Positions 12,991-54,340 of a DNA stretch of 64,000 nucleotides are shown here, one piece after another. Both the position numbers and the translations under genes were made by a program. Source of the stretch: an uncultured Caulobacterales bacterium (lineage in GTDB: Bacteria; Pseudomonadota; Alphaproteobacteria; Caulobacterales; Maricaulaceae); assembly GCA_938009235.1 (NCBI GenBank), contig CALLIK010000007.1, forward strand, positions 310,001 through 374,000. Reading direction: 5' to 3'. Each line of letters begins with the position of its first letter. The stretch's first letter is position 1. The notes under the pieces are model-generated. The model was not told the DNA's origin, did not search any database, and worked only from the letters and a program-made list of their open reading frames with translations.

Positions 12991-13743
12991 ATGTACAGTT
13001 TTAACGCTATTATAGAGGTTAAAAAATCCCATCAAGAAAAGAATACTAGCCCTCTATTAAGGGATTATATTTTCTCATTAATAGATAAAACTAATGAAGA
13101 ATTTTTTGGTAACAGATCAAGTTTTAAATGTGCACAAACCGCTTTAGCGACAGCTTACCTTCTCCATAAGTTCAACATAAAACCCATTTATATTTTAGGG
13201 GCTATATGTGTTCCAAAAATAGCTGAAGATCATACAAGGTCAAATTGGCATGGGTTTTGGGGAGCGGATCACCATTATTGGATAATGACAGAATTTGGAG
13301 AGATTGTAGATCTATCTGTAGCCTACATACATGGACACCCTAAAGAACAAGATACCATATTTCAGATGCCCCCAATTTGGATAAATACCAAAAATGGCAT
13401 GCCTAATTGCTTTAAGTACCTTCCTGATCAGTGGTTCAATATTGATTTTTCTAACGGAAAACCAAATACTTCTTTCGAAGTAGATAATGACGAAACAACA
13501 GATTTATCCCCAAAGGAGGAGCTCAGCCAATATTGGAAAGCCCTGGATAAAAATCTAGAACTTCCTAAAATTAAACTCCGCAATCGATTTTCCTGTCGTA
13601 TCGAAAGCGGTATTACTGAAGAAAGTTTGAAAACTTTCCCATCAGTATATTTGAACTCTATTCCAGCATTTTTAAATTTACAGTTAGAACTGCCAAGTTG
13701 GGTTAGAAACAGAGAATCCGAACTTATGGCCTCTTACACTTAA
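12991..13743 (+). CDS. AT-rich orphan protein with a Cys-His-Asp pattern
   Basis: A 250-residue cytoplasmic protein of unrecognised family. Its base composition differs sharply from its neighbours: the 60-base block at 13021-13080 has only 17 G or C. No clear ribosome site precedes the ATG. Possible catalytic residues in papain/transglutaminase order are Cys47 (FKCAQTALATA), His94-His95 (GADHHYWIMT) and Asp107 (IVDLSVAY). In that superfamily the Cys sits at a helix start and His and Asp lie on following strands, as here. Low GC and isolation between conserved genes suggest horizontal transfer. Function and substrate are unknown. Confidence 0.65.
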   Translation: MYSFNAIIEVKKSHQEKNTSPLLRDYIFSLIDKTNEEFFGNRSSFKCAQTALATAYLLHKFNIKPIYILGAICVPKIAEDHTRSNWHGFWGADHHYWIMTEFGEIVDLSVAYIHGHPKEQDTIFQMPPIWINTKNGMPNCFKYLPDQWFNIDFSNGKPNTSFEVDNDETTDLSPKEELSQYWKALDKNLELPKIKLRNRFSCRIESGITEESLKTFPSVYLNSIPAFLNLQLELPSWVRNRESELMASYT

Positions 13744-13798: not shown

Positions 13799-14821
13799 CT
13801 ACCCCTTCAAACGCTTCACAACCTCTTCGAGCTGATCGCCTGTTTTATACTTAATCCGCAACTCTCCGCCTGGACCTTTATGTTGTAGGTCGACCTTTAG
13901 GCCGAGATAGTCTGAGAGCTCTTGCTCTAGGGCTTTGATATTTGGATCGTCTTGGCGCGGAACGGTCAGGTTCGAAATAATCGGGCCGCTCTCTTTATAG
14001 CGTTTCACATATTGCTCGGTTGCGCGAACGGACAGGCCTTCGCGAATAATCATATCCGCAATTTCCGTAGGGTCGGGCATATTGACGATGGCTTTAGCAT
14101 GACCCGGCGTGATGCGGCCGAGTTGCAACCACCGCACAACTTGTAACGGCATATCAAGCAGGCGTAGCAAGTTCGCAATATGGCTGCGGGATTTCCCAAT
14201 CGCCTCTGAGACTTCAACTTGGGTACGGCCAAAATCATCCATCAGCGCGCGATAGGCGCGGGCTTCTTCAATCGGGTTGAGGTCTGCGCGTTGCACATTC
14301 TCGACGACGCCAATTTCGAGGACTTCTTGATCCGTAAGGTCACGGATCAAAACAGGCATGGCATCGAGGCCCGCCTTTAGGGAGGCTTGCCAACGGCGCT
14401 CGCCCGCCACGATTTGGAAGTCAGCTTTCGTGCCAGAGGAGCGTTTGCTGCTGGGAATTGGGCGGACCAAGATCGGCTGTAAAACACCAGAGCGTTTGAT
14501 CGACTCCGTTAGCTCGGCCATGTCCGTTTCATTGAACATTTTACGCGGCTGATCGGGGTTACGGTCCAAACGCGAAATGGAGATGAATTGCACATTGCGC
14601 GAACTGGCGTCTGGCGTTTCCGTTACAGGCGTGACCGTAGCCTTTGAAGTCGGGGCGGCCGCAGGTTTTCCACTAAATGTCTTATTCGCGGCGATGGGGT
14701 CTGTCGCCTCCGCAGATGGGATCGACACATCCGCCATCAAAGCCGACAAGCCGCGACCTAAACCGCGTGCGCTTGCCTTCTTTGGCGCTTTTTTCTTAGG
14801 GGGGATATTCGTCTCCGCCAT
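13799..14821 (-). CDS. parB: chromosome partitioning protein ParB
   Basis: A 340-residue DNA-binding CTPase that loads at parS, spreads, and guides origin segregation with ParA. An Ala/Lys-rich N-terminus ends in GRGLSALMADV, the ParA-contact region. The ParB/Srx domain follows with ISRLDRNPDQPRKMF and GERRWQASLKAG (CTP-binding box). The HTH reads TQVEVSEAIGKSRSHIANLLRL, in parts, about residues 195-220, and a C-terminal dimer domain ends the protein. It lies 17 bases after parA. Two parS palindromes occur within 5 kb (16274 and 18404). Confidence 0.97.
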   Translation of the reverse strand: MAETNIPPKKKAPKKASARGLGRGLSALMADVSIPSAEATDPIAANKTFSGKPAAAPTSKATVTPVTETPDASSRNVQFISISRLDRNPDQPRKMFNETDMAELTESIKRSGVLQPILVRPIPSSKRSSGTKADFQIVAGERRWQASLKAGLDAMPVLIRDLTDQEVLEIGVVENVQRADLNPIEEARAYRALMDDFGRTQVEVSEAIGKSRSHIANLLRLLDMPLQVVRWLQLGRITPGHAKAIVNMPDPTEIADMIIREGLSVRATEQYVKRYKESGPIISNLTVPRQDDPNIKALEQELSDYLGLKVDLQHKGPGGELRIKYKTGDQLEEVVKRLKG

Positions 14822-14838
14822 GATGCTAACCTACTGTT

Positions 14839-15618
14839 TTAATTACGGTTTCTATGTTTTTTGATCAATTCGTCGGCCAAGTCGAAATAGGCCTTCGCCC
14901 CTACGGATTTAGGGGCATAGGTCGTCACAGGTTGACCAAAACTTGGGGCCTCTGCAATGCGAACATTGCGCGGAATGATCGTTTGAAAGACGGCCCGGCC
15001 TAAATGCTTGCGGACGTCTTCGGCAACTTGCGCGGATAGACGATTACGGCGATCATACATCGTTAGCATCACGCCATCGATAGCCAACGCCGGATTGATT
15101 GAGGTCTTCGCCATTTCAACCGTTTGTAAAAGTTGGCTCAACCCTTCGAGCGCAAAGAACTCACACTGCAACGGCACGATCACAGAGCGCGCCGCAGACA
15201 AAGCATTGATCGTCAGCAAGTTCAGAGACGGCGGGCAGTCAATCAGGACATAATCAAAACTGGTTTGCGCGGCCTCTATGCCATTGCGCAAGAGACGTGT
15301 GCGCCCCTCTGCGTTGCCAATTTCCATTTCCGCCGCAGAGAGATCAACATGACTGGGCAGAACAAAGAGGTTTTCAACTTCGGTGGGGTAAATCGCATCG
15401 TCAATCGGAAGGTGTTCGGTCAGGACATTATATATAGTGTGTTCGCGTTCGGCCCGCGAAATACCCAATCCCGTCGACGCATTGCCCTGTGGGTCCATAT
15501 CAATCAGCAAGACGCGAAGGTTTTTAGCCGCAAGCGCCGCCGCGAGATTGATGGAGGTCGTCGTTTTACCGACGCCGCCCTTTTGGTTCACAATGGCAAT
15601 AATACGATCAGGGTTCAT
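14839..15618 (-). CDS. parA: chromosome partitioning ATPase ParA
   Basis: A 259-residue Walker-type ATPase with the deviant Walker A NQKGGVGKTTTSINLA at about 11-26, Walker A' DMDPQGNASTGLG at about 41 and Walker B VLIDCPPSLNLL at about 124. It forms ATP-dependent dimers on the nucleoid and moves ParB-parS complexes after replication. It is followed by parB in the usual order; rsmG lies 85 bases upstream. The length is typical for chromosomal ParA. Confidence 0.97.
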   Translation of the reverse strand: MNPDRIIAIVNQKGGVGKTTTSINLAAALAAKNLRVLLIDMDPQGNASTGLGISRAEREHTIYNVLTEHLPIDDAIYPTEVENLFVLPSHVDLSAAEMEIGNAEGRTRLLRNGIEAAQTSFDYVLIDCPPSLNLLTINALSAARSVIVPLQCEFFALEGLSQLLQTVEMAKTSINPALAIDGVMLTMYDRRNRLSAQVAEDVRKHLGRAVFQTIIPRNVRIAEAPSFGQPVTTYAPKSVGAKAYFDLADELIKKHRNRN

Positions 15619-15703: not shown

Positions 15704-16408
15704 TTATTTTGCGTGCAACTCTGTAATCCGAAGAATAGAGGCCGCAGGATCTGTGGCGCTCTTGAACGCGTCCACTTCAAAGTTCCAGTGCTCTCGCGCT
15801 GATTCGACTTCGTTATCCGCAGTTTCCCCTTTGGGCAGGATCAAAACAGCGCCCTCTTTTAGGTGCGGCGCGGCATAGGCAAAGAGCTTTGGCAGCGGCG
15901 CAAAAGCGCGGGCCGTCAGAACATCAGCCTTGAGCGGTGCTAAATTTTCAACGCGGTCCGTGTGAACGGTCACGGGAAGCTTCAACTCGCGCGTCACAGT
16001 TTTGAGGAAACTCGTCTTTTTGCCGACAGACTCCACAAGATGCACCTCACATGATCCCCGCTGTTTCGCATATATACCTAGCGACAATCCTGGGAAGCCT
16101 CCCCCAGACCCCAAATCGACTAAACGGTCCCATTTTTCAGGGAGATACTGGTTTAACTGAAAGGAATCAAAGGCATGACGATGCCAGAAGGCGTCGATTT
16201 CCTTTGACGCAATGAGGTTGATACTCTTGTTCCACTTCCTCAGCAGGGTTTCCCACCCCACAAAGTCAGATAATGTTCCACGTGGAACATTTGAATGATC
16301 CGCGAAATCTTCGGCGGTCCAGATTGGGCCACCCTCAGATTTGCCATCGGGCTTTGAAGCCATTGCGGCTTTTGATTTAGTTTTACGGCTCTTCATATTG
16401 GGTCTCAT
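15704..16408 (-). CDS. rsmG: 16S rRNA (guanine-N7) methyltransferase RsmG
   Basis: A 234-residue SAM-dependent methyltransferase that makes m7G527 in 16S rRNA. The SAM motif LVDLGSGGGFPGLSLG is seen at about 92-107. The N-terminus has a Lys-rich extension of about 30 residues before the conserved start. Its ATG shares one base with the mnmG stop (TAATG), so the two are coupled. Residues NVPRGT (about 40-45) are encoded by a perfect parS palindrome. Confidence 0.95.
   Translation of the reverse strand: MRPNMKSRKTKSKAAMASKPDGKSEGGPIWTAEDFADHSNVPRGTLSDFVGWETLLRKWNKSINLIASKEIDAFWHRHAFDSFQLNQYLPEKWDRLVDLGSGGGFPGLSLGIYAKQRGSCEVHLVESVGKKTSFLKTVTRELKLPVTVHTDRVENLAPLKADVLTARAFAPLPKLFAYAAPHLKEGAVLILPKGETADNEVESAREHWNFEVDAFKSATDPAASILRITELHAK
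16274..16289. promoter_or_regulatory. parS centromere site (inside rsmG)
   Basis: TGTTCCACGTGGAACA is a perfect 16-base palindrome matching the widely conserved parS consensus recognised by ParB; the palindrome extends to AAT...ATT on both sides (16272-16291). An identical copy lies at 18404. It is 1.4 kb upstream of parB and about 13 kb from the proposed origin, the normal distance range. Confidence 0.93.
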
Positions 16409-18403: not shown

Positions 18404-18419
18404 TGTTCCACGTGGAACA
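18404..18419. promoter_or_regulatory. parS centromere site (mnmE-mnmG intergenic)
   Basis: A second TGTTCCACGTGGAACA palindrome identical to the one at 16274, again flanked by AAT and ATT. It lies in the 160-base gap between mnmE and mnmG, 2.1 kb from the first. Paired parS sites favour ParB nucleation and spreading across the rsmG-mnmG segment. Confidence 0.93.
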
Positions 18420-27992: not shown

Positions 27993-28601
27993 TCATGATT
28001 GTGCTATTCCGCGCGTTCGTAAATAATCGAGCACAGGTAAAAGATCGAGGCCAAGGATACCAAAGAACCCGCCTTCAACCTTTTCAAATAATTGCGCGCC
28101 CGGGCCTTCGAAACGATAGGCACCGACACTCTTCGTCAAGGCTTCGCCTTCTATCTCAATGTACCAATCAAGGAAGCTGTCTGAGAAGTCACGAACCCAT
28201 AATTTAGTCCGGCAGATATGACGCCAAACGGGCGCGCCATTTTCACAGATAACAACCGCGCCAATCAACTCATGTTTTTTACCGCGCATCTCTAACAGAC
28301 GGCTACGGGCCTCAACGAGGTCCTTAGGCTTATCGAATAATTGATCGATTCCGTTTTCATCACGCATAACCATGATTTGATCTGCGCCAATAACAAGGCC
28401 TTCTTCTTGACGAGAGACACGCATCGCCTTCGCTTCGGCAAGCGCATCAGCAATATCACGCAGGCGAGACCCTTCCGCTAACATAGCCTCTTTAATAGAC
28501 GCCTCATCAACAGGACGGACAATAACTTCATAGTCAAGACCAGCGCCATCCAGAATTTCACGGCGGATAGCTGATCCACTGGCGAGAATAAGGCGGCTCA
28601 T
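27993..28601 (-). CDS. maf: Maf-family nucleotide pyrophosphatase
   Basis: A 202-residue Maf protein starting LILASGSAIRREILDGAGL (the usual S-x-R-R phosphate loop) with the catalytic Asp in VIGADQIM. Maf proteins hydrolyse dTTP, UTP or modified nucleotides to limit their incorporation. The ATG overlaps the ppsR stop (ATGA), so the pair is coupled. Confidence 0.92.
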   Translation of the reverse strand: MSRLILASGSAIRREILDGAGLDYEVIVRPVDEASIKEAMLAEGSRLRDIADALAEAKAMRVSRQEEGLVIGADQIMVMRDENGIDQLFDKPKDLVEARSRLLEMRGKKHELIGAVVICENGAPVWRHICRTKLWVRDFSDSFLDWYIEIEGEALTKSVGAYRFEGPGAQLFEKVEGGFFGILGLDLLPVLDYLRTRGIAQS

Positions 28602-29461
28602 AAACGTAGGTCCTTACGGCGTTCTTCGACGGGACGCGCTTTATTATAGAGATTGATAATCCGCGCAGAGGTTTCTTCAATGGAACGTCGAGTGACATCA
28701 ATCACCTTATAACCCTTACGCACAAACATACGTTTAGCATCGCGCACTTCATCACGAACGCGGTCTTCATCAATATAATCGGTCCGCGCCACTTGCCGTA
28801 GTCCCGTCAGGCGCTGCTCTCTGATTTCGACAATGCGATCAGGTGAGGCAACAAGACCCACAATAAAGGGCTTTTTAAATGTATCTAGAATATCAGGCAA
28901 AGGCGCACCCGGTACCAAAGGAATATTCCCCGTCTTGTAACCCCGGTTTGCAAGGTAGATCGAAGTCGGTGTTTTGGAGGTTCGAGAAATTCCCAACAAT
29001 ATAATGTCTGCCGTTTCTAAACCGGGCACATTCTGACCATCATCATGAACCATCGCATAATCTAAAGCTTCGATCCGTGAATAATAAGCATCATCAAGAT
29101 TTCGCTGCGCCCCAATCTCATCTGTCATCGCTGAGCCAAGATAACGCGCGAGGACAGATAGCGTCGGATCCAATATAGAGACAGTCGGAATATTGCGTTC
29201 ACGACAGAAAGTCTCCAGACGCTTACGACGCTCTGGATTCACCAATGTAAACAATACAACACCCGGTTTAGCCTCAATCGTTTTCAAAGATTGTTCAAGC
29301 TGAGCCTCAGATCGTACCAAGGCATGTAAATGTTCCAGCGCTGTGGCTGATCTAAACTGAGCCGTAGACGCTTTCATCATCGCCACTAATGTCTCACCCG
29401 TAGAGTCAGACACGAGGTGAACGTGAAAATATATCGCGATATTGGCATTGCGCGTCGACAT
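28598..29461 (-). CDS. ppsR: pyruvate phosphate dikinase / PEP synthase regulatory kinase-phosphatase
   Basis: A 287-residue bifunctional ADP-dependent kinase and Pi-dependent phosphorylase (DUF299) that controls PPDK or PEP synthase by Thr phosphorylation. It begins IYFHVHLVSDSTGETLV and has the P-loop-like GISRTSKTPTSIYLANRGY at about 150-168. The ATG at 29461 is preferred to a TTG 15 bases upstream; GGAG lies about ten bases before it. This is the homologue of Rickettsia RP001, the gene that borders the Caulobacter origin. It leads the leftward operon. Confidence 0.93.
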   Translation of the reverse strand: MSTRNANIAIYFHVHLVSDSTGETLVAMMKASTAQFRSATALEHLHALVRSEAQLEQSLKTIEAKPGVVLFTLVNPERRKRLETFCRERNIPTVSILDPTLSVLARYLGSAMTDEIGAQRNLDDAYYSRIEALDYAMVHDDGQNVPGLETADIILLGISRTSKTPTSIYLANRGYKTGNIPLVPGAPLPDILDTFKKPFIVGLVASPDRIVEIREQRLTGLRQVARTDYIDEDRVRDEVRDAKRMFVRKGYKVIDVTRRSIEETSARIINLYNKARPVEERRKDLRL

Positions 29462-29854
29462 AAGGTGCGGCTCCAAACCTCAGCTAAAATCAGAGGTGTA
29501 TTCTTGACCCTCGTTTCGCGTGTTTACCTCCTCCTGTCCACAGGCAAAGGCTGAACCCACACTTAGGACTCGTATATCGGGCATAGGTTTCACTAACCCA
29601 CAGCATACATCCACAGCTCGAAGGATAAGCTGTTAAGATTGTGAACAACGAGGATAAGACTTATGCTAAATCTTATCCAAGGTTTTATCCCCAAGCCTAC
29701 GATAGGTAAAAGGTGTATTTAGAAACATATGCACTTACACAAAACAAAAGCCGCACACAGTAGGATAAAAATCCACTCCCGATTCAGCCCGTGCATATTA
29801 AACTCTCCTAACAAAAGGTGAATCCGCCCACATCATCACAGGCTCTACATCAAC

Positions 29855-29886
29855 TCCTCTTTAAAGATTCTTTTTAGAGAGGAGGA
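29855..29886. repeat. imperfect inverted repeat in the origin region
   Basis: CTCCTCTTTAAAGA and its imperfect partner TCTTTTTAGAGAGGAG form an AT-rich hairpin candidate between the DnaA-box cluster and hemE. It may aid unwinding or terminate transcription; neither is shown. Confidence 0.35.
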
Positions 29887-29914
29887 AGGTTGGCTTGGAT
29901 ATGTGTGGGGGAAA

Positions 29915-29946
29915 CGCTAAGACAGGCCTTCAAATCAGGCTTAGCG
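29915..29946. repeat. inverted repeat upstream of hemE
   Basis: CGCTAAG at 29915-29921 is mirrored by CTTAGCG at 29940-29946, with a further CCT/AGG pairing inside. The right arm overlaps the CtrA-like site at 29941, so structure and regulator binding may be linked. Confidence 0.4.
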
Positions 29947-29955
29947 ATCTCTTAA
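29941..29955. promoter_or_regulatory. CtrA-like site in the origin/hemE region
   Basis: TTAGCGATCTCTTAA matches TTAA-N7-TTAA at seven of eight positions. In Caulobacter, CtrA silences the origin by binding several such sites next to hemE. Here only one good match is seen. Confidence 0.4.
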
Positions 29956-29993
29956 ATCCAGATCGATGCCATCACATTATGTAAGCCGAACCT

Positions 29994-31025
29994 ATGAAAC
30001 TGCTCGATGTCTTAAACGGTCAGCAAACCGAAACACCTCCAATCTGGATGATGCGTCAAGCGGGTCGTCACTTACCTGAATATCTAGAAATTCGCGCGAC
30101 CTGCAAGAACTTCATCGATTTCTGCTTTACGCCAGACAAAGCGGCAGAAGTAACGCTTCAACCTATCCAACGCTATGATATGGACGCGGCCATTTTATTC
30201 GCAGACATCTTGCTCATTCCAATCGGATTAGGACGCAAAGTTGATTTCATCAAAGGCACTGGCCCTGTGTTGGAACCAATTGATGTAGATGGAATTGCAA
30301 AGCTTACCGTAGGCGGAGCGGCTGATCGGATTAGCTCTATCTACGAGACGGTAGAACGCGTGCGGGCAGGCCTAGCCCCAGAGAAAACTCTGATTGGCTT
30401 TGCGGGCGGTCCTTGGACAGTCGCGACCTATATGATCGAAGGCAAAGGTAGCCCGACAAAAGAAATAGCAAAACGCTTTGCTTATGAGAATCCAGAAGCC
30501 ATGTCAGACTTGCTCGCGGCGCTGGTTGAAAGCACCGCAGATTATTTGATAGGCCAAGCGAATGCGGGCGCGAATGTTCTCAAGATTTTTGAAAGCTGGG
30601 CCGAAGGTCTTGCGCCTGATCTCTTTGATCGTCTGGTTATCAACCCAACGCGAGATATTATTACCCGTGTGCGCGCTGCTGGGATTACAGTTCCAATTAT
30701 GGGCTTCCCGCGCGGCTCTGGTTTGAACGCTATTCGCTATGCACATGAAACAGGGATTACGGCCATCGCCGCAGGCACCCAAATGCCAATGGAAGATTTC
30801 CGCTCAACCATCCCTGAAGGGATGCCCGTTCAAGGCAATCTAGATCCATTGGCGCTTAGAATTGGCGGAACAACGCTCTACCGTTCAGTCGAAGCCGTGC
30901 TGCGCGACGCTGCCGGCGGCCCGCACATCTTCAACCTAGGCCACGGCGTCACGCCAGATGTGAAAATTGAGAACGTTCAAGCGGTGGTCGACCACATTCG
31001 TGGCAAAGAGCCTAATTACGTTTAG
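29994..31025 (+). CDS. hemE: uroporphyrinogen decarboxylase
   Basis: A 343-residue enzyme converting uroporphyrinogen III to coproporphyrinogen III in heme synthesis. The signature PPIWMMRQAGRHLPEYLEIR, in parts, is at about 19-38 with the substrate-binding Arg residues, followed by DAAILFADILLIPIGLG and IGFAGGPWTVATYMIEG. It begins the rightward block away from the origin. In relatives hemJ and rho usually follow directly; here a lipoprotein gene intervenes. Confidence 0.96.
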   Translation: MKLLDVLNGQQTETPPIWMMRQAGRHLPEYLEIRATCKNFIDFCFTPDKAAEVTLQPIQRYDMDAAILFADILLIPIGLGRKVDFIKGTGPVLEPIDVDGIAKLTVGGAADRISSIYETVERVRAGLAPEKTLIGFAGGPWTVATYMIEGKGSPTKEIAKRFAYENPEAMSDLLAALVESTADYLIGQANAGANVLKIFESWAEGLAPDLFDRLVINPTRDIITRVRAAGITVPIMGFPRGSGLNAIRYAHETGITAIAAGTQMPMEDFRSTIPEGMPVQGNLDPLALRIGGTTLYRSVEAVLRDAAGGPHIFNLGHGVTPDVKIENVQAVVDHIRGKEPNYV

Positions 31026-37358: not shown

Positions 37359-37361
37359 ATT

Positions 37362-37658
37362 ATGGTGGACCATTTTCTAATCAAACATATTCTTATTATG
37401 TTGATCCCCTGCATCATCGTTGTCTTCTTTAATAGAAGGCCAGTGTTGACCTTTACTTTAGCTGTGGTTTTTCTTTACCTAACTCTGGCGGGACCTGAGA
37501 TTAAGAAGACAATTGAGATAATGTCAGCCTATGGGACGACCAACCCAGGTTTAATGTTAAGCCGAGTGTCAAAAGTTTTTGTGAAATCAGCACATGATCT
37601 ACCCGTCTACCTTTTGGTATTGGCGGTTATCCAATGGGTTACGCGACGGCGAGATTAG
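37362..37658 (+). CDS. small membrane protein, tandem paralogue 1
   Basis: A 98-residue protein with two to three membrane helices. It aligns over its length with the next gene: RRPVLTFTLAVVFLYLTLAG against RRPIWAFGIASILLYLIIAA, and IQWVTRRRD against IQWIARRKY. It starts three bases after the C39-like lipoprotein gene, so it is probably co-transcribed. No family is recognised. Confidence 0.65.
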   Translation: MVDHFLIKHILIMLIPCIIVVFFNRRPVLTFTLAVVFLYLTLAGPEIKKTIEIMSAYGTTNPGLMLSRVSKVFVKSAHDLPVYLLVLAVIQWVTRRRD

Positions 37659-37701
37659 TTAAAGATGAGTGAGAGACATTTTGGGTGAATGGAGAGCATA
37701 G

Positions 37702-38079: not shown

Positions 38080-38115
38080 TGGCGCTGGCGCTTCGTCATT
38101 CAGTGTAAGGCTAGA

Positions 38116-38412
38116 CTAGCCTTTGCTTGGCATAACTTTACCAAGAATGGCGGTCAGGATTGTACCGCCTACGCCGCCAGACACTGCCCCGCCGAGGAGG
38201 CTCATTGGGTTAAGTGATGCGCCAGCTCATGGGTCAGCAAACATACCTCCTAAGCCTGGAATCATTGGCGCAAGTGCTGCCAATCCAGTGCCGCCAACGA
38301 TACCTGTTAGTACGCGTCCCATTGTACCCATATTTGAGTTCAACAATTTACCAGCAACAAGTCCGCCGCCGCCGCCGCTGACGAGTCCTAAAATCAAACT
38401 AATTGGATCCAT
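38116..38412 (-). pseudogene. Gly-rich hydrophobic small protein with an in-frame TGA
   Basis: One continuous leftward frame of 99 codons is split by a TGA at 38227-38229. The first 61 codons read MDPISLILGLVSGGGGGLVA and onward to GLGGMFADP. The frame then continues AGASLNPMSLLGGAVSGG to KVMPSKG and a TAG. Both halves share Gly-rich amphipathic character (GGTGLAALAPMIPG, SGGVGGTILTAILG), as expected for one protein. AAGGGGA lies six bases before the ATG. A nonsense mutation is the simplest reading; read-through cannot be excluded. The second half has no ribosome site of its own. Confidence 0.6.
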
Positions 38413-38433
38413 GATATTCCCCTTAAATTATAT

Positions 38434-38451
38434 CCCACAATTACCTGTGGG
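38434..38451. promoter_or_regulatory. small inverted repeat between the Gly-rich gene and comM
   Basis: CCCACA and TGTGGG pair around six bases. It lies 22 bases upstream of the Gly-rich gene start. It may be an operator; the rest of the 205-base gap shows nothing clear. Confidence 0.3.
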
Positions 38452-38617
38452 TAATGAAAGGTGGCGTTTTGTTGCAGGTGAGCAAGTAAATAAGCATATT
38501 TTTCACCTTAAACGGGTGATGGCTTAGGTTACGCAACTAAAGTTCTTGCTTTGTTCGTTTAATTCTGTTTGCATCATGTAAGACATTTCTCTGTAATATT
38601 TTTGCTGTTGAGGACTT

Positions 38618-53681: not shown

Positions 53682-53761
53682 GGTCCGACTCTCATGCACC
53701 GATATGTCACATCTGGTCAATGCGGGTTGCGTATGACGCTCACCTGTCCCACATAGCTGTC

Positions 53762-54340
53762 ATGTTTATTCAAACCGAAGATACGCCGAACCCGGCGACG
53801 TTAAAATTCCTACCTGGCAAAGAGGTGGTTGGCCCCGAAGGGCGTGTCCGCGAATATACGCGCGGCGAAGCTGTCACCGATGCGCCTATGGCTGAGATGT
53901 TATTCATGATCCCAGACGTACACCGCGTCTTTTTTGGGAATGATTATATCTCCGTTACGCGCGGCGAAGATTCGCAGTGGAAACACCTCAAGCCTGCCGT
54001 ACTCGGCGCGATCATGGATTTCTATGTCGCGGGCGGCACGCCGCTGCTGGATCAACTCCAAGCGGGCGAAGTAGATGAGCGCGTCTATGAAGGCGATACG
54101 CTAGAAATTGTAGAACAGATCAAAGAGTTGATTGAACTTCGTGTGCGCCCTGCTGTGGCCGAAGATGGCGGCGATATTGTTTTCAAACATTTTGACGACA
54201 CAGACGGAACGGTTTTTCTGGAAATGCGCGGCGCCTGTGCGGGGTGCCCATCTTCTACCATGACGTTGAAACACGGCATCGAAAACTTGCTAAAGCATTA
54301 CGTCCCAGAAGTGACGAGCGTCGAACAGAGCACAGCTTAA
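53762..54340 (+). CDS. NifU-like Fe-S scaffold protein
   Basis: A 192-residue protein beginning FIQTEDTPNPATLKFLPGK (the Nfu N-terminal domain) and ending in a NifU C-domain with the cluster-binding CxxC in MRGACAGCPSSTMTL. It carries [4Fe-4S] clusters to target enzymes. Alphaproteobacteria commonly pair it with tsaB, as here (ATG five bases after its stop). The ATG at 53762 is the conserved start; earlier in-frame ATGs would overlap the divergent protease gene. Confidence 0.92.
   Translation: MFIQTEDTPNPATLKFLPGKEVVGPEGRVREYTRGEAVTDAPMAEMLFMIPDVHRVFFGNDYISVTRGEDSQWKHLKPAVLGAIMDFYVAGGTPLLDQLQAGEVDERVYEGDTLEIVEQIKELIELRVRPAVAEDGGDIVFKHFDDTDGTVFLEMRGACAGCPSSTMTLKHGIENLLKHYVPEVTSVEQSTA

Follow-up and report, generated by a model that had tools for sequence, protein, structure and literature searches.

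Between the divergently transcribed ppsR and hemE genes of an uncultured Caulobacterales bacterium lies a 517-base gap, which raises the question of whether the chromosome starts its replication there and, if so, which parts of the gap would bind the initiator, open the duplex and restrain initiation. The gap is contained in a 64-kb stretch of DNA (the window; C7:310001-374000), and positions below refer to the window unless a contig is named. The genome analysed is a draft of 2,787,935 bases in 16 contigs, of which contig C7 (628,810 bases) is the one profiled whole. HemE is 94% identical to that of Litorimonas cladophorae (L085) and 76% identical to that of Algimonas arctica (L092), and its HemE relatives place the source genome in the same GTDB genus as these two species.

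The ppsR-hemE gap and its surroundings

Pfam matches identify the two flanking genes as ppsR and hemE (Table 1), in agreement with the original prediction that the gap has the same borders as the Caulobacter origin. The ppsR reading frame starts with TTG (29476), and an in-frame ATG is located 15 bases farther inside. The gap contains 44% G+C, compared with 43-52% in the 20-kb blocks of C7 (one of 32 blocks is below 46%), and its A+T content exceeds the genome average, as expected of an origin. Rfam families and tRNA genes are absent from the 64-kb window.

Two descriptions of the surroundings in the original prediction are accurate in part. The gap was said to be the only gene-free stretch above 300 bases, which is nearly right but hinges on the gene models. 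When reading frames of at least 100 residues are counted, two further gaps above 300 bases appear (37359-37701 and 53721-54243). Each has a plausible small or overlapping gene: a 98-residue reading frame lies inside the first, and the second overlaps a reading frame with weak, below-cut-off similarity to NfuA. A 134-residue reading frame with a TTG start (38123-38527) has no family match; if it is no gene, 38080-38617 is another gene-free stretch of more than 500 bases. Housekeeping operons were also said to run away from the gap. This holds for the immediate flanks, where genes like dnaQ, coaE, aroE, maf and ppsR lie on the minus strand to the left and hemE, UPF0093 and rho on the plus strand to the right, but the contig-wide strand bias is weak. 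Outward-pointing long reading frames number 107 of 193 to the left and 87 of 147 to the right of the gap on C7, and 10 of 17 and 15 of 18, respectively, inside the window.

Table 1. Features of the predicted origin region (window coordinates; a dot marks features given no strand)
Feature	Position	Strand	Basis or remark
parB	13799-14821	-	Pfam; only HTH_ParB match in the genome
parA	14839-15618	-	Pfam
Two perfect parS sites, TGTTCCACGTGGAACA, flanking gidA/mnmG	16274-16289, 18404-18419	.	Genome-wide search
ppsR (RP001-like, COG1806 family), kinase/pyrophosphorylase	28598-29476	-	PF03618, E 1.4e-85
Predicted chromosomal replication origin (gap between divergent ppsR and hemE, 44% G+C)	29477-29993	.	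Skew, TTATCC cluster, conserved in relatives
ppsR-side DnaA-like box CTGTCCACAGGC, conserved	29534-29545	+	Genus alignment
Two weak DnaA-like boxes, partly conserved	29594-29615	+	TAACCCACA at 29594-29602, ACATCCACA at 29607-29615
Five-core TTATCC cluster	29623-29768	.	Cores at 29623(-), 29652(-), 29673(+), 29685(+), 29763(-)
Segment of lowest duplex stability in the gap (50 bases), with poor conservation; rival opening site	29701-29750	.	Nearest-neighbour scan
Highly conserved ATTAAACTCTCCTAACAAAAGGTGAAT	29797-29823	+	Aligns with TTAA-N6-TTAC-N7-TTAA of relatives
Candidate opening module	29824-29880	+	Position kept across the family
Weak DnaA-like box CCGCCCACA of module	29824-29832	+	
TCATCACAGGCT, between box and trio-like tract of module	29833-29844	+	
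Trio-like tract CTACATCAACTCCTCT of module	29845-29860	+	
AT-rich TTAAAGATTCTTTTTAGAGA of module	29861-29880	+	
Conserved GGATATGTGTGGGGGAAACG	29897-29916	+	Identity 0.91 in the 8 closest gaps
Single-mismatch CtrA-like TTAGCGATCTCTTAA near hemE	29941-29955	+	Same form in 4 of the 8 closest gaps, window included
hemE, uroporphyrinogen decarboxylase	29994-31025	+	PF01208, E 1.1e-101

Position of the predicted origin on the chromosome

The cumulative GC skew of C7 has a single minimum at C7:340224 (window 30224), 231 bases beyond the gap. To its left (1-340 kb of C7) all 17 blocks of 20 kb have negative skew, and to its right (340-629 kb) all 15 blocks, the last of them 8.8 kb long, have positive skew, so that the skew switch expected of an origin lies at this locus on the 629-kb contig. 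An inversion elsewhere had been named as evidence against an origin here, and the profile of C7 leaves the origin reading standing. The minimum is broad (340-346 kb of C7), and its resolution is therefore several kb.

Partition genes and sites are located nearby, with gidA and mnmE following parB and parA (13799-15618) in gene order. The genome contains three perfect parS sites, two of them in the window; these two and parAB lie 11-15 kb from the gap, compared with a parS distance of within 8 kb for Cori, the origin of Caulobacter (PMC4468827). The third perfect site, TGTTTCACGTGGAACA, is positioned at C7:505420-505435, roughly 165 kb away from the gap.

The arrangement of the two flanking genes recurs among the relatives, for which the best 80 of 234 loci were kept: ppsR is divergent from hemE in all 80 kept named loci, with projected gaps of 339-554 bases. 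Sampled GC skew changes sign at hemE, being negative on its left and positive on its right, in three genomes (G003, G018 and G040), and also in G013 save for the nearest right block, at -0.0015. It has no clear minus-to-plus pattern around hemE in G009 and G031, and in G015, where the contig ends, the samples come from the left side only and are negative. In G014, a complete genome of the same genus, 12 of 12 samples between 320 kb and 1.94 Mb are positive and 7 of the 8 others negative. Within the contiguous part of G014 the skew minimum falls at 292 kb and hemE at 357 kb, about 65 kb apart, so that skew and hemE position agree roughly, not exactly. G014 and G018 each consist of one contig, on which dnaA is located near base 500, with hemE about 357 kb and about 300 kb away, respectively.

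The breadth of the skew minimum bears on a different explanation, in which the gap is merely a divergent ppsR/hemE promoter or regulatory region and the origin lies elsewhere, near the minimum (340-346 kb) or near dnaA. At C7:345500 the cumulative skew differs from its minimum (340224) by no more than 20 counts, origins usually lie beside dnaA (PMC10225481), and the 65-kb offset in G014 points the same way. We nevertheless consider this explanation very improbable, given that C7 has no second TTATCC cluster of this kind, that relatives retain both the gap and its excess of motifs, and that the Caulobacter origin provides a precedent between the same genes (PMC1914354). In this genome dnaA (C7:127847-128344) lies 212 kb to the left of the gap amid steady negative skew, on which ground an origin at dnaA itself is rejected.

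The gap is thus very probably the chromosomal replication origin, of the hemE-ppsR type, of a Litorimonas-like alphaproteobacterium, as originally predicted: the skew minimum, the parABS neighbourhood and the conserved gap in relatives agree. The assignment draws on location, flanking genes, skew switch, parS sites, motif excess and conservation. It is a new example of an already known class, since the Caulobacter and Rickettsia origins sit between hemE and a COG1806 gene, the same pair as here (PMC1914354). Flanks, several DnaA-type boxes and nearby parABS are common to the window and to Cori of Caulobacter crescentus (the hemE/CC0001 interval). Unlike in Caulobacter, dnaA is distant from the predicted origin, and the gap is longer than the 404 bases tabulated for Caulobacter in PMC1914354. 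The predicted origins of Rickettsia prowazekii and the Wolbachia group share the hemE flank and, in Rickettsia, also the COG1806 gene (PMC1914354); compared with these, the gap is less AT-rich and has many TTATCC cores, and the lineage is not intracellular.

DnaA-type words and the candidate opening module

The most conspicuous sequence element of the gap is a cluster of TTATCC cores. A recount confirms that five cores in both orientations fall within 146 bases, and the core singled out earlier as the best, TTATCCCCA, is found at 29685-29693 on the plus strand. Elsewhere on C7, which contains 281 cores in 628,810 bases, 146-base intervals contain two at most. Dinucleotide shuffling of the gap (200 shuffles) gives a mean of 0.33 cores, and none of the shuffles reaches five. 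As predicted boxes, the five cores supply the several DnaA boxes characteristic of this origin type. The consensus box TTATNCACA is absent from the gap, where the best box has one mismatch, as is a perfect TTATCCACA. TTATCCMCA is not enriched genome-wide (18 matches, compared with 32 for the reversed control). The G-boxes of Cori have the consensus TGATCCACA (PMC4285127); the gap contains TTATCC and TCCACA cores instead. The word TGATCCAC occurs in none of the 43 gaps of the family and twice in the 47 Caulobacteraceae-like gaps.

For motif counts, 95 distinct gaps were grouped into the 8 closest to the window, 8 others of the same genus, 27 others of the family and 47 Caulobacteraceae-like gaps, the last defined by locus number and HemE similarity; five gaps (L080, L081, L129, L140 and L161) are omitted from the group counts. 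Conservation of the individual cores differs among the 15 other same-genus gaps. Best preserved is the core at 29652, which is exact in 7 and has at most one mismatch in all 15, followed by those at 29673 (5 and 8), 29685 (2 and 7) and 29763 (0 and 3), and the core at 29623 has no counterpart at either level. The words themselves are in excess in every group: the 8 closest gaps contain 17 TTATCC and 24 TCCACA (2.5 and 2.0 in shuffles), and both words likewise exceed shuffles in the three wider groups. With no words preselected, the four most enriched 6-mers in the 95 gaps are TCCACA, CGTTAA, CACAGG and GGATAA. Weak conservation by position, together with excess in all groups, indicates that DnaA-type words shift place within the gap.

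Two parts of the 16 same-genus gaps are best kept by alignment and block scores, one around CTGTCCACAGG near ppsR and the other at 29797-29916 near hemE. The early emphasis on 29600-29780 is therefore supported only in part, the best conserved DNA being 29797-29916. On the ppsR side, the conserved box at 29534-29545 reads CTATCCACA or TTGTCCACA in some relatives; its exact sequence occurs twice in the genome, the other copy being at C7:42316.

DnaA-type words also stand near one another at two further places of note. Four TTATCC cores, less tightly grouped (271 bases, 13280-13550), lie within a reading frame adjoining parB (12991-13743) that has no Pfam or NCBIfam match. At C9:143241-143383, TTATCCCCA and TTATCCACA occur at a distance of 134 bases from each other; this short stretch, possibly a DnaA-regulated promoter or titration site, lies between reading frames or at their edge.

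In basal unwinding systems a DnaA box is followed by a short spacer, a DnaA-trio and an AT-rich stretch (PMC8287927; for Helicobacter pylori, PMC8235120). The hemE side has a comparable family-wide order, in which TTAA-N6-TTAC-N7-TTAA is followed by TCCACA and TCACAGG, C-T-A triplets such as CTACTACTATCACT, and AT-rich DNA; the alignment on which this is based holds 15 of the 47 Caulobacteraceae-like gaps. In Caulobacter segnis (L135), our stand-in for Cori, an AT-rich element situated some 130 bases upstream of hemE can be likened to that of the window.

The published rule for such a module allows a box with up to two mismatches, a spacer of 0-16 bases and at least three NAN triplets (PMC8287927). 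The window's copy does not conform to it, with four mismatches in the box and a spacer of 21, and its trio score alone does not rise above shuffles (24 of 30 reach it). At the aligned place, 5 of the 27 family gaps conform (0.29 in shuffles; largest of 100, 2), as do none of the 8 closest gaps, 1 of 8 other same-genus gaps and 1 of the 15 aligned Caulobacteraceae-like gaps. Anywhere 60-220 bases before hemE, conforming modules are found in 15 of 27 family gaps (4.2 in shuffles; largest of 40, 7), 4 of 8 other same-genus gaps (0.6), 5 of 47 Caulobacteraceae-like gaps (0.3) and 1 of the 8 closest (0.6). These counts support the module in the relatives; in the window, the support is its kept position. 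Some relatives share with the B. subtilis oriC basal unwinding system (PMC8287927) a box, an 11-12-base spacer, CTA-type triplets and an AT-rich stretch, whereas in the window's copy the box is weak and the triplets are imperfect.

This weakness of the window's module, together with the low stability of 29701-29750 (only 0.7% of the 50-mers of the window are less stable), speaks for a different opening site, in or beside the TTATCC cluster, either at 29701-29750 or to the left of 29640. Two minus-strand boxes are suitably placed. TTATCCTAC (29760-29768) has three mismatches, a 9-base spacer and three triplets and is directed into 29701-29750, and TTGTTCACA (29640-29648, two mismatches, 10-base spacer) fits the published pattern and points toward ppsR. 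Conservation argues for the hemE side, whose module holds its place across the family; in the interior of the gap no part is less conserved than 29697-29756, with identities of 0.33-0.49 among the close clade. Opening at the cluster is a real but somewhat doubtful possibility.

With opening at the hemE-side module, we infer the following sequence of events. DnaA would bind dispersed boxes, comprising the ppsR-side CTGTCCACA, ATCCACA and the TTATCC cluster. A DnaA filament would then extend toward hemE, engage the box, spacer and trio-like tract at 29824-29860, and open the adjoining AT-rich stretch, where the helicase would be loaded. Replication forks would depart in both directions, and ParB bound to the parS sites 11-13 kb away would segregate the copies.

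CtrA and IHF sites

The canonical CtrA site TTAA-N7-TTAA is absent from the gap and from the whole window. It is present in 43 of the 47 Caulobacteraceae-like gaps (60 sites, 0.1 expected) and 16 of the 27 other family gaps (20 sites, 2.0 expected), but in only 1 of the 16 same-genus gaps, none of the 8 in the window's clade and 1 of the remaining 8. With 500 bases of flanking sequence included on either side, the site occurs in only one of 11 same-genus loci, L111, and there within the gap. C. segnis L135 has three such sites. The consensus IHF site is also missing from the window's gap: WATCA-N5-WTR occurs in none of the 8 closest gaps, 1 of 8 other same-genus gaps and 9 of 27 family gaps, and exceeds shuffles in no group. 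A second form, WATCA-N4-TTR, is in excess (5, compared with 1.0) in the Caulobacteraceae-like group only.

CtrA itself is encoded at C6:78779-79459 and is 82-83% identical to Caulobacter CtrA, with a nearly identical DNA-binding part. TTAA-N7-TTAAC has 40 matches genome-wide (34 distinct places), compared with 18 (17) for an 8-base spacer; the reversed-pattern controls give 24 and 52, respectively. On C7 alone the N7 excess is not clear (intergenic matches: N7 11, N9 11, N6 5, N8 6). A changed CtrA specificity as the reason for the missing sites is unsupported, given the conserved DNA-binding part and the genome-wide count.

Any CtrA silencing at this origin must use non-consensus sites. Such sites may be present: the gap contains two single-mismatch N7 sites, CTAA-N7-TGAA at 29808 and TTAG-N7-TTAA at 29941, and ATTAAACTCTCCTAACAAAAGGTGAAT is possibly a degenerate CtrA-type site. 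In the 8 closest gaps the single-mismatch N7 sites number 11, compared with 4.6 in shuffles (0 of 100 reach this), block 29797-29816 is 94% identical, and weak CtrA sites in Caulobacter are the subject of a published title. However, sites with a 6-base spacer are equally in excess (11, compared with 4.4; reached by 2 of 100 shuffles), so that the single-mismatch excess is not specific to CtrA spacing, and the window's gap has only the two sites. We regard continued silencing by CtrA through these degenerate sites as close to an even prospect.

Other lineages provide precedents in both directions. The origins of Ehrlichia ruminantium and one Wolbachia are reported, like the window's gap, to lack consensus CtrA sites (PMC1914354), and Brucella CtrA is reported not to have bound its own origin (PMC2877005); Hyphomonas CtrA binds adjacent to its own (PMC7200025). 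Among the literature matches listed for Hellea, Robiginitomaculum, Litorimonas and Algimonas, none concerns CtrA. In the stalked bacteria of the Litorimonas/Algimonas lineage, the origin may have escaped silencing through consensus CtrA sites even though the genome retains CtrA with its DNA-binding part and, elsewhere, the canonical motif; we consider this rather unlikely. If so, any swarmer-cell replication block would be imposed otherwise, by DnaA level, by weak sites or by a different protein on the conserved 29797-29816.

This is a family in which dnaA poorly marks the origin, lying 212 kb off here and about 300 and 357 kb off in two complete relatives. It also offers a set of close relatives, some having consensus CtrA sites at their origins and others lacking them, in which to ask to what extent a dimorphic cell cycle depends on replication control by CtrA.
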